From positions 1-54,107 of IMG/VR virus record IMGVR_UViG_3300005617_000340: a stretch of DNA of 54,107 nucleotides, one strand, 5' to 3'. Within the stretch, counting starts at the first letter, position 1. Each line of letters begins with the position of its first letter. The position numbers were made by a program, and so were the translations under genes. The DNA comes from a virus. This document shows positions 7,018 to 35,179 of this stretch, one piece after another. The notes under the pieces were generated by a model. The model was not told the origin of the DNA. It saw only the letters and a program-made list of their open reading frames with translations, and made no database searches.

Positions 7018-7761
7018 CTAGTAAACAAAATCCTCTTCGAGTGAATAGTGTCCTACTTTCACAGAACAGTCAACAGCACATCTATAACCATATTTACGAG
7101 CATCCGACCAGAAGTAGAGATCTTGCGTGCTCAATCCATCTCTAGTTTGTGTAACAAACCACGGGCGCCGTAGCTTCTTGTCTTTGAACATATTTAGCCG
7201 CCAGAGATTAAATCCCATACCAGTACCGCAGCATTCGACCAACCCGCCAGTCGGATCTGGTAGTTGCGGTCTGAAATTCAGTTTCGGATCTTTCGGATCT
7301 CCCCAGATCTGCGCAACGCCACCAGCTTGTCCATCCCCTTGACGTCCCTTGGTAAAGTACAACCCGCCAATACAGGCAAATTGAGGATTGGCTTCCATCC
7401 GTTCTATCAGTCGCAGAACACCATCGGCCGGAGGCATATTGTCATGCTCTAACGTAAGTATCCATTCCCAGGTGCTCAACTCCGGATGAAGCAGGATCTG
7501 CTCAATTGCGGTTGAATAAGCTTCACCAACCTCCAAACCAATTGCGAGCATTCGTACAACAGGATTGTTGGGAGGGAAGGAGAGATTCCAATGACTCAAT
7601 GCGACTTTAGCTGCGATTGTTTCAGACGTTGGTAGTAAAACGATGAGTCGCTGTCTCTTCCAGGATTTGCTTTTGTCTAGACGAGATCTTGTTTTGCCGA
7701 GATCGCCGTTGTTGAGACCGGCAGTTTCCAGATTTTGAATGAGAAGTTGGGGCTTTTTCAT
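7018..7761 (-). CDS. Glycosyltransferase (GT-A fold)
   Basis: 247 residues. After a short N-terminus there is a Rossmann-like strand (RLIVLLPTSETI), then WILTLEHDNMPPADGVL with the Asp-x-Asp-like metal site, and later CCGTGMGFNLWRL and TQDLYFWSDARKYGYR, which match the phage GT-A family also seen in the fused protein at 5119. Likely acts with the adjacent methyltransferases on surface glycans. The acceptor is unknown. Confidence 0.8.
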   Translation of the reverse strand: MKKPQLLIQNLETAGLNNGDLGKTRSRLDKSKSWKRQRLIVLLPTSETIAAKVALSHWNLSFPPNNPVVRMLAIGLEVGEAYSTAIEQILLHPELSTWEWILTLEHDNMPPADGVLRLIERMEANPQFACIGGLYFTKGRQGDGQAGGVAQIWGDPKDPKLNFRPQLPDPTGGLVECCGTGMGFNLWRLNMFKDKKLRRPWFVTQTRDGLSTQDLYFWSDARKYGYRCAVDCSVKVGHYSLEEDFVY

Positions 7762-7770
7762 GCAGAGATA

Positions 7771-8874
7771 TTAATAAGAACTCTGGGCCCAATTCCAGTA
7801 AATTCTTTGATTGCTCGCAAGATTCCTCATGTCGGATGTCCCGACATTCGTAGGAGGAACCGTGCTGGTAGACGCATACGATCCGTGAAACTGTTGAAAC
7901 ATTGAAGAAGAATTAGAGACGGACTGACCTAATCTCTTGAACCCTTGCCCGACAAATTCAGATACATAGACACGACTCTGAGTTGTCATCATCGTTCCTG
8001 TACTATAGTTCGTACCGGAGGAACTAGATGAACTGCTATACATATTAGCAAGCCAATAATCTCCAGCCGGAAGCGTCGTTGCAAAGGGAAATAATTCAAA
8101 CCGACTACCAGTAATGTATGCTGCTACTCCTGTAATTAAATTATCAGCCAGGGTCGATGCCGCAGTGCTAACCGCAGTTGATGTAGAACCCGACTGCGAT
8201 GTTGAACTGTATGTCACTCCACCAGCGGTATTCCACTGAGCAGGGAAGCTGGCTGTTAAGAAATTGGAAATGACAACGCCAGTTGTTGTACCACCAACCA
8301 CACTAGAAGTAACACGACGCTCCCAGGTAAAGAGCATCGAACAATCGGCGCTCCAAATTGATTCGAGTCTTGTAGTGTTCGCTCCAGTTCCTAATTGATA
8401 AAGCGCAAGTTTGTTACTAATCGTTTGTGTGAGAGTTACCGATCCTGTGCTTACAGATGAATAGACAGCCCCATTCTTAAAGATCGAAGAATTAACGGCC
8501 ATCAGAATTCCAATCTGACCGCTCGTTAGCGCAAAGGGAAGGAAGAACGGATCGAAATACCAAGTGCCAATACCTGCTGTCACCATGTTCGAAGCTACCA
8601 CAGGCAAGGGCTCAAAATAGCCCAGAGTATCGAGTCCGGCTGTAAGTCCACCGGCGCCCGTCGCACTTGATAATCCATTGTTGAAAGAAAAGAGGCTGGC
8701 TATCTCGGAGCCGGTAAGCGAAAGAGTCAGATTGTGTGCCGAATTCCAATCGGAAGGACGAACAATATTTGTTGCTAGAACCGAAGCCGATCCACCAGAA
8801 CTATTCCCAACCGTGACTGTACCAGTCCAGTCGGCAATGGTGTCGCTCTTAGCATGTTGAATAGTAAGCGGCAT
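7771..8874 (-). CDS. Virion surface/decoration protein
   Basis: 367 residues, Ser/Thr/Gly-rich, beginning MPLTIQHAKSDTIADWTGTV. The phrase VRPSDWNSAHNLTLSL is typical of phage tail-associated surface proteins I have seen. Serine runs (SSSSSSG) mark flexible loops. It lies between a methyltransferase and a glycosyltransferase and may be a target of these enzymes (inference). Its start overlaps the stop of the methyltransferase gene by one base. Confidence 0.7.
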   Translation of the reverse strand: MPLTIQHAKSDTIADWTGTVTVGNSSGGSASVLATNIVRPSDWNSAHNLTLSLTGSEIASLFSFNNGLSSATGAGGLTAGLDTLGYFEPLPVVASNMVTAGIGTWYFDPFFLPFALTSGQIGILMAVNSSIFKNGAVYSSVSTGSVTLTQTISNKLALYQLGTGANTTRLESIWSADCSMLFTWERRVTSSVVGGTTTGVVISNFLTASFPAQWNTAGGVTYSSTSQSGSTSTAVSTAASTLADNLITGVAAYITGSRFELFPFATTLPAGDYWLANMYSSSSSSSGTNYSTGTMMTTQSRVYVSEFVGQGFKRLGQSVSNSSSMFQQFHGSYASTSTVPPTNVGTSDMRNLASNQRIYWNWAQSSY

Positions 8875-16121: not shown

Positions 16122-16195
16122 GCGGGTGTGGCGGAATTGGCATACGCGCAACGTTGAGAACGTTGTTTTTGGAGGTTCGAGTCCTCTCATCCGCA
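16122..16195 (+). tRNA. tRNA-Leu(GAG), short variable loop
   Basis: Acceptor GCGGGTG/CATCCGC, anticodon stem CAACG/CGTTG with loop TTGAGAA. Variable loop TTTTT, T arm GGAGG-TTCGAGT-CCTCT, A73. Confidence 0.88.
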
Positions 16196-17063: not shown

Positions 17064-17737
17064 AGATTCACGGAGGGAAGAAAGATTATTGGGATACGGC
17101 GTTAGGTTACGGCGTAGATCCTACTCTTCATTACAACCGCAAAGAAAAAGAACTGGATTACGGAAATCTTAAGGCCGCGCTTCCTACGGAACTAACCCGG
17201 TTTCTCGATCACAATGCTGGTTGGGGTTCCTGGCACCGCAATATAGTAGATCGATTCGTAATAGGATTCTGTGGTCGAATCTTTCCTTGCATCTACGTTG
17301 AAAGAGCACTATTCGCTCGTGGACCATTAGAGATTCATTATCTCTACGATGCTGAAAACGCCATACAAGTTTTGGATCTCAAAGATCTAGATCATTCTTC
17401 ATGGTTCCGGAGACACTGGCGAGGAATGGATCCCCTTAAAGCAAAAGAATTCTATTCCTTTACCAACAGCGTCCATGACGAGATCTTCGCTGAAATCAAC
17501 GCTCCAATCTTCACTCTCAAGACTAAGAATGGTCGAGATCACATAATCTCAACCAATCCTAATCTTAAAGAATTGCAGTTCTATAAGATTGTGGATAGCT
17601 TCACAGCATTTCAAGAGATTGCGATGTATCTTAGCAATCAGTTGGTCCGTAGAGATAAGCCTGATGAAATTGCTGATAAGTACAAGATAAGTCAGCACGG
17701 ATTCGATCCAACTTACAGCTTTAGGAAACGACCATGA
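17060..17737 (+). CDS. Conserved phage hypothetical protein (225 aa)
   Basis: 225 residues, MKIHGGKKDYWDTALGYGVD... It has no signal or membrane segment and is rich in aromatic residues (FRRHWRGMDPLKAKEFYSF). I recall similar proteins in other large phages but no function. Coupled by overlap to the HNH gene before it and the gene after it. Confidence 0.8.
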   Translation: MKIHGGKKDYWDTALGYGVDPTLHYNRKEKELDYGNLKAALPTELTRFLDHNAGWGSWHRNIVDRFVIGFCGRIFPCIYVERALFARGPLEIHYLYDAENAIQVLDLKDLDHSSWFRRHWRGMDPLKAKEFYSFTNSVHDEIFAEINAPIFTLKTKNGRDHIISTNPNLKELQFYKIVDSFTAFQEIAMYLSNQLVRRDKPDEIADKYKISQHGFDPTYSFRKRP

Positions 17738-24127: not shown

Positions 24128-24322
24128 ATGATCGCTCAAAAGGCAAAAGCAGGTTATCTCATTCTCTGTATCATAGGTGGCTGCTTGATGATTGGCATGA
24201 CTTTAATAGCCGCCTTTTTCAGGATCGAGAGTGTCCTTATCAAGATTATTCTTTCCGCAATTATAGTGATTGGTTGTGCTTGTTTCGCAATAGGATTTTA
24301 CAAACAAAATATGGTTGGGTAG
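24128..24322 (+). CDS. Two-helix membrane protein, stop inside tRNA-Phe
   Basis: 64 residues with two transmembrane helices (GYLILCIIGGCLMIGMTLIA and IILSAIIVIGCACFAIGF). Its TAG stop (24320-24322) is bases 8-10 of tRNA-Phe. Function unknown. Confidence 0.7.
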   Translation: MIAQKAKAGYLILCIIGGCLMIGMTLIAAFFRIESVLIKIILSAIIVIGCACFAIGFYKQNMVG

Positions 24323-24389
24323 CTCATTTTGGAAGAGCGCTGGTCTGAAAAACCAGAGGTGGCGAGTTCGAATCTCGCTCCAACCACCA
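24313..24389 (+). tRNA. tRNA-Phe(GAA), CCA encoded
   Basis: Acceptor GGTTGGG/TCCAACC, anticodon stem CTGGT/ACCAG with loop CTGAAAA, A73 followed by an encoded CCA. Overlaps the end of the preceding gene. Confidence 0.93.
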
Positions 24390-24408
24390 TTTCTAAACGG
24401 AGGCAACA

Positions 24409-25069
24409 ATGGAAACAGCAGTCATTGAAGTGCGAGCGGCAGAGGGCGGTGACGACGCCAAGCTGCTTGTAACCGACCAAATCAGAGCCTATATGTATGC
24501 CGCGCAGCGGAGGCATCTTTAGGGTTGAGCTCATAGACGAACGGCCAGGATTTGCAGCATTGACGCTCGAAGGCCCTAAAGCCTATGAGATATTCAAACA
24601 AGAAGCAGGCGGGCACCGATGGCAAAGAATTCCTCCAACTGAAAAACGTGGCAGAGTCCAGACGTCAACCGTCACAGTAGCGATCTTTGAAATCAAAGAT
24701 AGTAAGAATCCTGATTTAACGGACATCGAGATCCGAACGACCCGCGGTACTGGTCCAGGAGGGCAGCATAAGAACACAACAGAAAGTTGTGTGATTGCAA
24801 CCCACCGTCCAACCGGACTACAAGCCAGAGCAGATATGCGCTCTCAACATCAAAGCAAAGCGATGGCACTGAAGATCCTGACTGCCAAACTCTTAGACAG
24901 AGACAAGCAGATAACACAGGAGACGCAAGCAGCCGATCGACGAAAGCAGGTTGGAAGCGGAATGCGTGGTGATAAAATCAGGACATACAGCAGCCGGCAC
25001 AATCATGTGGTGGATCATCGCACAGGAAAGCGCTGGAAACTAAACGCCTGGATACGCGGAGAATGGTAA
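24409..25069 (+). CDS. Short RF1-like peptide chain release factor, made by +1 frameshift at CUU UAG
   Basis: Strong ribosome site (ACGGAGG) then METAVIEVRAAEGGDDAKLL, matching the EIRAGxGGDEA region of RF1/RF2. Frame 0 stops at UAG 24520-24522 right after CUU 24517-24519. The +1 frame continues RVELIDERPGFAALTL... to 25069, giving a 219-residue protein. It has GGHRWQRIPPTEKRGRVQTS (P-x-T as in RF1, not SPF as in RF2) and GPGGQHKNTTES (GGQ peptidyl-release motif), then a basic C-terminus. The N-terminal RF domain 1 is absent. The junction carries GGAGG, three bases, CUU, stop, as in bacterial prfB. Expected to release peptides at UAG/UAA and to sense its own activity at the UAG. Domain-1-less relatives (RF-H/ICT1 type) act in ribosome rescue, which is an alternative role. 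Confidence 0.9.
24508..24522 (+). promoter_or_regulatory. Programmed +1 frameshift site
   Basis: CGGAGG (internal Shine-Dalgarno) followed by CAU, then CUU and UAG. Spacing from the Shine-Dalgarno to the slippery CUU equals that in E. coli prfB, where the stop is UGA. Skipping the U of UAG puts ribosomes in the downstream frame. Confidence 0.85.
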
Positions 25070-25072
25070 TAT

Positions 25073-25144
25073 TGCGGGGTAGCTTAATGGTAGAGCGCCT
25101 GTCTTTGGAACAGGTCTATGAGAGTTCGACCCTCTCCCCCGTAG
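25073..25144 (+). tRNA. tRNA-Gln(TTG)
   Basis: Acceptor TGCGGGG/CCCCGTA, anticodon stem CCTGT/ACAGG with loop CTTTGGA, T arm GAGAG-TTCGACC-CTCTC, G73. Confidence 0.92.
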
Positions 25145-25148
25145 CTTT

Positions 25149-31526: not shown

Positions 31527-33119
<1,593 letters not shown>

Positions 33120-34239: not shown

Positions 34240-34538
34240 ATTTACTCGAGGTTATGGAAACGGCGACTCTGGCGTATCCTGATGAATTCCTAAGTGAGTA
34301 TTACAACGAAGAGGGATTACCCAACCATGTTGCCGGTCTTCCACTTGGAGCAGGCGGCGATACTCTTGCGGAGTTTATCGTCAATGAGCTTTACGAGAAA
34401 TGGAATGAAACCGACGACGAGACTCCCGACCACGAACGAGTAGAACTTTGCGCTGAAGCCATTCGAACCGCCCAGGACGAACTGGATAAGGTCGCAGAAG
34501 CTTTGGAAGATTTTGCAAAGAGACTAAGGAGCAAATAA
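34227..34538 (+). CDS. Acidic helical hypothetical protein (103 aa)
   Basis: 103 residues from MGRLDLLEVMETATLAYPDE. Acidic, helical (HERVELCAEAIRTAQDELDK), LAEFIVNELYEKWNET in the middle. Overlaps the genes on both sides (its TAA overlaps the next ATG), so it is part of the same operon. Confidence 0.7.
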   Translation: MGRLDLLEVMETATLAYPDEFLSEYYNEEGLPNHVAGLPLGAGGDTLAEFIVNELYEKWNETDDETPDHERVELCAEAIRTAQDELDKVAEALEDFAKRLRSK

Positions 34539-35179
34539 TGGCAGACTCAACTCTTCACGAAGAATTATATAGATCAAAGGAGGCCATGAAGCGCTTACAG
34601 ACTTTCAAGGTGCTGGTATGCGGCGCCGGCGCCCTCGGTTCTAATATTCTTGAGTCTCTAGCTCGTCAGGGATTCACGAAGCTGTGCGTTGTAGACTTCG
34701 ATAGAGTCGAAGATCGTAATCTATCAACGCAGCCGTACGGCCGACAAAACATAGGACAGAAGAAAACATCAGCCATCGTGAACAAGATCTACAGGGATCT
34801 CGAAATCGACATCCTATGGCAAGCAGTTCACATGGATGCTGGTAACGCCGGGAAATTCATCAAGGGATGGGATTTGATTGTGGACGCGTTCGACAACGCA
34901 CCAAGCCGCAACATCGTGGCTATCAGAGCGAAGCAAGAGAACATTCCTTGTCTCCATGTAGGGATCGCCGAAGATGGAAATTACTCAGAAGGAGTCTGGA
35001 ATCAGGTCTACTCGATACCAGGTGAGATCGAGGATTCAGAGATCTGCAACTACCCTCTCGCCAGAAACCTAGTTTCCATCACTGTTGGTCTAGCATGCGA
35101 ATTGATCGTACAATTCGCAACAACTGGAGTTCAGAACACATTCACCTTTACATTCAAGGACTTAACGATTAACAGGTAA
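34538..35179 (+). CDS. ThiF/E1-like adenylyltransferase
   Basis: 213 residues. FKVLVCGAGALGSNILESLA is the nucleotide-binding glycine loop; CVVDFDRVEDRNLSTQPYG supplies the D-x-D and conserved Arg/Asn; QKKTSAIV gives the conserved Lys; LIVDAFDNAPSRN is the second acidic motif. A late SEICNYP Cys could be the thioester or metal Cys. There is no separate C-terminal domain, as in minimal bacterial E1s that adenylate the C-terminal Gly of ubiquitin-like or ThiS-like proteins. Candidate partner: the protein at 29181. Confidence 0.88.
   Translation: MADSTLHEELYRSKEAMKRLQTFKVLVCGAGALGSNILESLARQGFTKLCVVDFDRVEDRNLSTQPYGRQNIGQKKTSAIVNKIYRDLEIDILWQAVHMDAGNAGKFIKGWDLIVDAFDNAPSRNIVAIRAKQENIPCLHVGIAEDGNYSEGVWNQVYSIPGEIEDSEICNYPLARNLVSITVGLACELIVQFATTGVQNTFTFTFKDLTINR

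Follow-up and report, generated by a model that had tools for sequence, protein, structure and literature searches.

A release factor gene split over two frames

The stretch of DNA analysed here (the window) is the IMG/VR virus record IMGVR_UViG_3300005617_000340, 54,107 bases in length, and the element in question is a single release factor gene that is split over two reading frames between the genes for tRNA-Phe and tRNA-Gln (Table 1). The gene lies within an array of 39 tRNA genes detected by ARAGORN; the Rfam tRNA family gave 40 matches in the window. Its first open reading frame (ORF0), preceded by a ribosome-binding site, runs from 24409 to the UAG codon at 24520, where the junction reads CGGAGG-CAT-CTT-TAG (CAT at 24514-24516). 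When the T at 24520 is omitted, the translation extends from AGG at 24521 over 182 codons to a TAA at 25067-25069, giving a fused product of 219 amino acids that contains GGQ. The window thus has the register of bacterial prfB, with a Shine-Dalgarno sequence 3 nucleotides before CUU, a stop codon directly after it and the body of the protein in the +1 frame. The original prediction, which had described a release factor frame interrupted by a prfB-style +1 cassette at UAG, was correct in each of these points.

Table 1. Parts of the split gene and tRNA genes referred to in the text
Feature	Position	Strand	Basis or remark
ORF0 Shine-Dalgarno sequence CGGAGG	24398..24403	+	sequence
ORF0, ATG 24409-24411, 37 codons (METAVIEVRAAEGG...AAQRRHL) and stop TAG; N-terminal part of release factor domain 2	24409..24522	+	
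Internal Shine-Dalgarno sequence CGGAGG, 3 nucleotides before the shift codon	24508..24513	+	conserved in most relatives
CTT shift codon (P site)	24517..24519	+	CTT in 87/87 unselected +1-break loci
TAG gate stop codon	24520..24522	+	sequence
Release factor body, +1 frame, 182 codons and TAA	24521..25069	+	
PPT (residues 75-77), where RF1 has its PxT tripeptide	24632..24640	+	
GGQ motif, residues 117-119	24758..24766	+	
tRNA-Phe (gaa)	24313..24389	+	ARAGORN; directly upstream of the release factor gene
tRNA-Gln (ttg), just past the release factor stop	25073..25145	+	ARAGORN
Phage tRNA-Leu (gag)	16122..16195	+	ARAGORN; anticodon reads CUU

Pfam matched the product to PCRF, at profile positions 101-194 of 194 only, and to RF-1; since PCRF was matched only from position 101, domain 1 is missing. 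Among the NCBIfam profiles prfA was the best (1e-58), followed by prfB (1e-35) and prfH (1e-25), and the top matches among solved structures were RF1 proteins. Both the decoding tripeptide PxT, at the RF1 position with a Gln before it, and GGQ are present, as in RF1. The product differs from RF1 in that it lacks domain 1, carries a recoding gate and scores 199 bits, below the curated prfA cut-off of 400; some members of the family also have variant motifs. With PrfH (RFH) it shares the build of a domain-1-less class-I factor of about 200 residues, as given in the part of the PrfH paper used here (PMC1586002), which mentions frameshifting for RF2 only. Unlike PrfH, however, it has the PxT motif, its PrfH score of 90 bits is below the cut-off of 167, and its upstream neighbour is tRNA-Phe and not the PrfH partner gene. 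The sequence therefore points to an RF1-type release factor without domain 1 (hereafter mini factor), the class that had been proposed from its motif, with a codon specificity that is likewise predicted.

The cassette in relatives and in bacterial carriers

A viral contig scan with the single window protein as query gave no matches; with an alignment of seven relatives as query it did. In annotated phage records, a protein search returned matches of at most 43% identity, and the best of them, L001 from a 485-kb uncultured phage, is broken after residue 37 too, with CGGAGGGGT-CTT-TGA at the junction. The viral contig scans (best 80 matches at most from each) and bacterial genomes together yielded at least 310 loci, two of which were the window itself. 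These reduced to 220 distinct loci, of which 87 had a +1 break, 101 were in one frame, 31 lacked an N-terminal hit and one was odd (L252, a shift of 2). The latter 32 loci were left out, as were L299, L305 and L310 at re-filing.

In this first, unselected pass, CTT preceded the stop codon in all 87 loci with a +1 break. Six loci were then re-filed as gated because a CTT-stop had been looked for and found (giving 93), and three more after inspection of the first stop following the N-terminal segment (giving 96). A homologous CTT-stop gate is thus present in at least 96 distinct loci, the window included and near-duplicates such as L174 and L182 counted separately; the stop is UGA in 74, UAG in 19 and UAA in three. 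Across 93 loci, C-GGAGG prevails at positions -12 to -7, and the stop is followed by C in 62. A Shine-Dalgarno run of at least 5 bases within 10 nucleotides was found at the site in 72/93 loci (77%), compared with 1-19% at seven control offsets. The invariant CTT and this enrichment over the control offsets show that the cassette is not a product of chance, and the conservation on which the original prediction had staked its claim was indeed found. Both coding segments are under purifying selection: in the same 16 chosen closer pairs, the pooled ratio of non-synonymous to synonymous differences (pN/pS) was 0.16 for ORF0 and 0.30 for the first 30 codons of the body.

The carriers of the gate are large phages and soil bacteria, and the gated mini factor also occurs in the complete chromosomes of Nannocystis poenicansa and Minicystis rosea. 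We examined eight bacterial genomes with a mini factor, six with the frameshift version and two with an in-frame UGA. A full-length prfA above the curated cut-off was present in seven of them, the exception being a Pyxidicoccus draft, and all eight had, in addition, another full-length class-I factor with a lower score. Five of these second factors had SPF and GGQ in one frame and are therefore RF2; the remaining three gave the script nothing to score. All five scored prfB genes had a CTT-TGA cassette, always in domain 1 and 179 residues ahead of SPF, whereas the gate in the window stands 38 residues before PPT, in domain 2. In both Nannocystis genomes the prfB cassette is CGGAGGCATCTT, the same as in the window until the stop, and the finished chromosome of N. 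poenicansa holds a mini factor side by side with a canonical prfB that has its own cassette in domain 1. The bacterial loci shared no neighbours beyond those of Nannocystis, the pair L231/L234 and the release factor gene itself or overlapping open reading frames; a few short neighbour matches were seen (e.g. L242 at 7573-8476), and Pfam, run on ten neighbours, revealed no shared theme.

The cassette of the mini factor therefore agrees with that of bacterial prfB, as described in the part of a 2016 review used here (PMC5009743), in its Shine-Dalgarno sequence, the 3 nucleotides before CUU, the stop, the +1 continuation, the register and the frequent C after the stop. The differences lie in the protein, which is RF1-type and lacks domain 1, in the position of the gate in domain 2, and in the stop, which may be UAG, UGA or UAA; the window, with UAG, departs from the UGA of prfB. 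The same review states, in the passage concerned, that expression of a release factor gene of an amoeba giant virus needs stop-codon readthrough and, separately, frameshifting (PMC5009743). That gene, compared here by its description only, belongs to a virus of eukaryotes, and a CUU-stop cassette is not mentioned in that passage. Huge phages, i.e. the same kind of phage, have been reported to carry release factors 1 and 2 among their translation genes; the word 'frameshift' is absent from the main text of that paper, as far as it was accessible (PMC7162821). In the open-access PMC literature we found no description of a frameshift cassette outside prfB, be it in RF1-type or in phage release factor genes.

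The decoding region itself varies, and PPN, SPT, PET or a shortened loop replaces PPT in some members, L022 being one with SPT. The loop is shortened, with PxT wholly or partly gone, in L001, L024, L174, L182, L206, L216, L219 and L225. Beside the decoding loop, the window has Gln (residue 84, RVQTS) in place of the His in the segment R-V-H-T-S; so do 10/17 UAG-gated and 28/73 UGA-gated rows of the alignment.

In-frame UGA codons and the phage context

For the phylogenetic analysis we used a tree of 162 rows, made by a quick method with the junction columns excluded and without inference of the root. A well supported clade of 25 rows has no frameshift and instead a single in-frame UGA, in the column that aligns with a tryptophan of the solved RF1 1rq0. 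The codon stands at this Trp position in L275 (5001-5672), L265 (5001-5681), L052, L078 and their relatives. The clade includes Gemmobacter caeni, where the locus has 18 tRNAs within 10.7 kb, a Jiella sp. and a Rhodospirillales metagenome-assembled genome. According to a whole-genome search in the alphaproteobacteria G. caeni and Jiella sp., the mini factor gene contains one TGA and the two full-length factors contain none. In phage G010, which has an in-frame UGA in its release factor gene and of whose record about 88% was covered, the tRNA-Trp has the anticodon CCA, and a UCA tRNA was not found. The in-frame UGA looks like a candidate readthrough gate. Readthrough of UGA was called unknown for bacterial release factor genes in the part of the 2016 review used here (PMC5009743).

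A code-4 test of nine phage records with an in-frame UGA detected coding past UGA-ended genes in 0 to 3 genes each; two AT-rich records taken as code-4 controls were also without coding past UGA (0/5 and 0/4), so that the test had no working positive control. A search for in-frame UGA in terminase genes matched 6 of 26 records, with no stop inside any of them. Two in-frame UGA codons occur in the mini factor gene of the AT-rich phages L003, L020, L027, L204 and L213; in W01 and G025, the AT-rich records sampled, UGA-ended genes elsewhere do not look read through.

Several phage records carry tRNAs with a CUA anticodon, the amber suppressor type: L374 (11561-11634), L377 (14737-14810 and 15137-15210), L379 (11974-12049) and L409 (19530-19604), and additionally L222, L223 and L226, three loci of another clade. 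The records with such tRNAs (G002, G013, G016, G010 and the three loci of the other clade) have a release factor gene with an in-frame UGA, and these phages may recode UAG. In the tRNA array of a phage with this type of release factor gene, L376 has at 17480-17553 a tRNA-like gene whose anticodon, ttca, is unusual in having four letters.

The 12 gated phage records with counted tRNAs, the window among them, have 3 to 64 tRNAs each. In 40 phage records (34 frameshift-gated, 6 with an in-frame UGA), the RF-1 family gave exactly one match per record, always at the position of the mini factor, many of these records being incomplete. Of 19 UGA-gated phages sampled, 11 have UGA as the stop of more than half of their genes, as called with a rough, home-made gene caller. 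A phage with one release factor and mostly UGA-ended genes would either lean on RF2 of the host or have a factor that also reads UGA. Elsewhere on the phage fragment of the window are genes for a protein with a Ro60-type vWA domain (31539-33119) and for a ThiF-family protein (34538-35179).

What the gate may sense

We propose, with a probability of about 0.72, that the mini factor is produced by an obligatory +1 frameshift and that the gate serves as a sensor of slow termination with an exchangeable stop codon. The ribosome would translate the 37 codons of ORF0, and its anti-Shine-Dalgarno sequence would pair with CGGAGG while a stop codon occupies the A site next to the Leu-tRNA on CUU. With slow termination, this tRNA would slip to UUU and translation would enter the body of the factor; the phage tRNA-Leu (gag) could be the slipping tRNA. 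The output would go up whenever the supply of release factors lags behind demand, a situation to be expected in a cell full of phage mRNA, and go down when termination is fast. The gate would thus measure slow termination whichever factor is short, and the product would then add release capacity. We infer the occurrence of the shift, its response to release factor supply and the codons that the product reads. In the window, the UAG would be read by RF1 of the host and probably by the product itself, which makes negative self-feedback possible there.

Several observations weigh against this proposal. A strong Shine-Dalgarno sequence was not found in some members (e.g. L030, L050, L085 and L164), and for three of the 93 loci no start of ORF0 was found at its normal distance. 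L026, L084 and L161 are close relatives with a continuous frame and no gate, showing that the gate is dispensable. The base after the gate stop in the window is G, present in 25/93 loci, and not the commoner C. In L061 and L077, CTT-TGA stands directly before the first conserved strand with no Shine-Dalgarno sequence ahead of it. Finally, the majority of members combine a UGA gate with an RF1-type motif. By the known rule, an RF1-type motif cannot read UGA, and a simple feedback loop therefore fails for the UGA-gated members. Self-feedback is plausible only in the UAG-gated minority, unless the protein also reads UGA. It is conceivable, although we consider it doubtful, that the mini factors read all three stops despite their RF1-type motif, one protein being the whole termination kit of the phage. 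If true, this would explain why a phage record has a single class-I release factor despite many UGA-ended genes, and why the gate drifts between UGA, UAG and UAA, since the feedback loop would be closed with each of the three stops.

The original prediction went further and regarded the gene as a mirror image of prfB, in which an RF1-type product, by reading UAG, holds down its own frameshifting, i.e. a true RF1 autoregulatory loop in the UAG-gated genes. We regard this as possible but rather unlikely. In the window, the UAG gate and the PPT motif do agree, and UAG occurs in 19 of the 96 gated loci; in the family, however, the match between the sensed stop and the specificity of the product does not hold, as 74 of the 96 gates are UGA and have the same range of motifs. 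In counts assembled by hand, PPT was present in 10/19 UAG-gated and 51/74 UGA-gated proteins (Fisher p 0.19), and the RF2-like first residue S in 4/19 and 3/74, respectively (p 0.03), which is opposite to matching. UAG-gated proteins are thus not more RF1-like. A scan of alignment columns against the gate singled out position 38, which is trivial because the stop itself encodes it, and Q148, which came first among the remaining columns (p 5e-5 in 651 tests, ancestry ignored); P75 differed in the direction contrary to a mirror image (p 0.008).

UAG-gated phages use relatively more UAG stops: with the home-made gene caller, the median TAG/(TAG+TGA) was 0.44 in 11 UAG-gated and 0.24 in 19 UGA-gated records (Mann-Whitney p 0.0098; 0.018 without one near-duplicate). 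Only five independent pairs are available on supported branches, and they are about evenly split (1.2 in the same and 1.1 in the other direction on average), so that this link is inseparable from ancestry. On the tree, the UAG gate requires 15 changes for 17 rows, compared with a mean of 16.5 after shuffling, and well supported branches force at least six; the window falls in a supported set of 21 rows, labelled in the tree as 16 UGA, 2 UAG and 3 one-frame. The simplest history would start from UGA as the gate, which was often exchanged for UAG and a few times for UAA, probably in this direction. Since UAG is scattered on the tree and the motif is not matched to the stop, the UAG match in the window may be just one outcome of a gate with a drifting stop. 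In the window's phage a strict RF1 autoregulatory loop may operate, but the mismatch across the family argues against such a loop as the reason for the cassette.

Less probable again is that the shift site merely sets a fixed, reduced yield and senses nothing. The drift of the stop among UGA, UAG and UAA and the existence of ungated relatives would fit such a role; as arguments rather than tests, a fixed yield would need no stop after CUU, and CTT-stop sites arise anew elsewhere in the gene in the clade L004/L061/L077, which is without the site at residue 37. There, L004 (2903-3681 in LR756511.1) has CTT-TAA behind AGGTG and then CTT-TGA at its N-terminus and would require two +1 shifts in succession. 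The appearance of CTT-stop at a different place of the same gene argues for a function.

It is very improbable that the body is made from an internal start, with ORF0 as a leader peptide. An ATG at 24497 lies in the +1 frame of the window, and 59/93 loci have ATG, GTG or TTG in this frame within the interval that begins at the last stop and ends 10 codons beyond the junction; however, an ATG near the junction occurs in only 17/93, one of them with a Shine-Dalgarno sequence, and ORF0 codes for conserved release factor domain 2 under purifying selection, and we rejected internal initiation on these grounds. A sequencing error or a decaying gene, which a lone frame break in a metagenomic fragment might suggest, was rejected as next to impossible, as the same CTT-stop break recurs in 96 homologous loci, complete bacterial chromosomes among them.

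An RF1-type family thus employs the prfB-type cassette at a new position in the protein and with any of three stop codons; in relatives its place is taken by an in-frame UGA. Such a naturally occurring series of gates offers a way to test an old question, whether the shift senses its own product, the other release factor or the speed of termination. It also suggests that phages rich in tRNAs monitor how much termination capacity the cell has.
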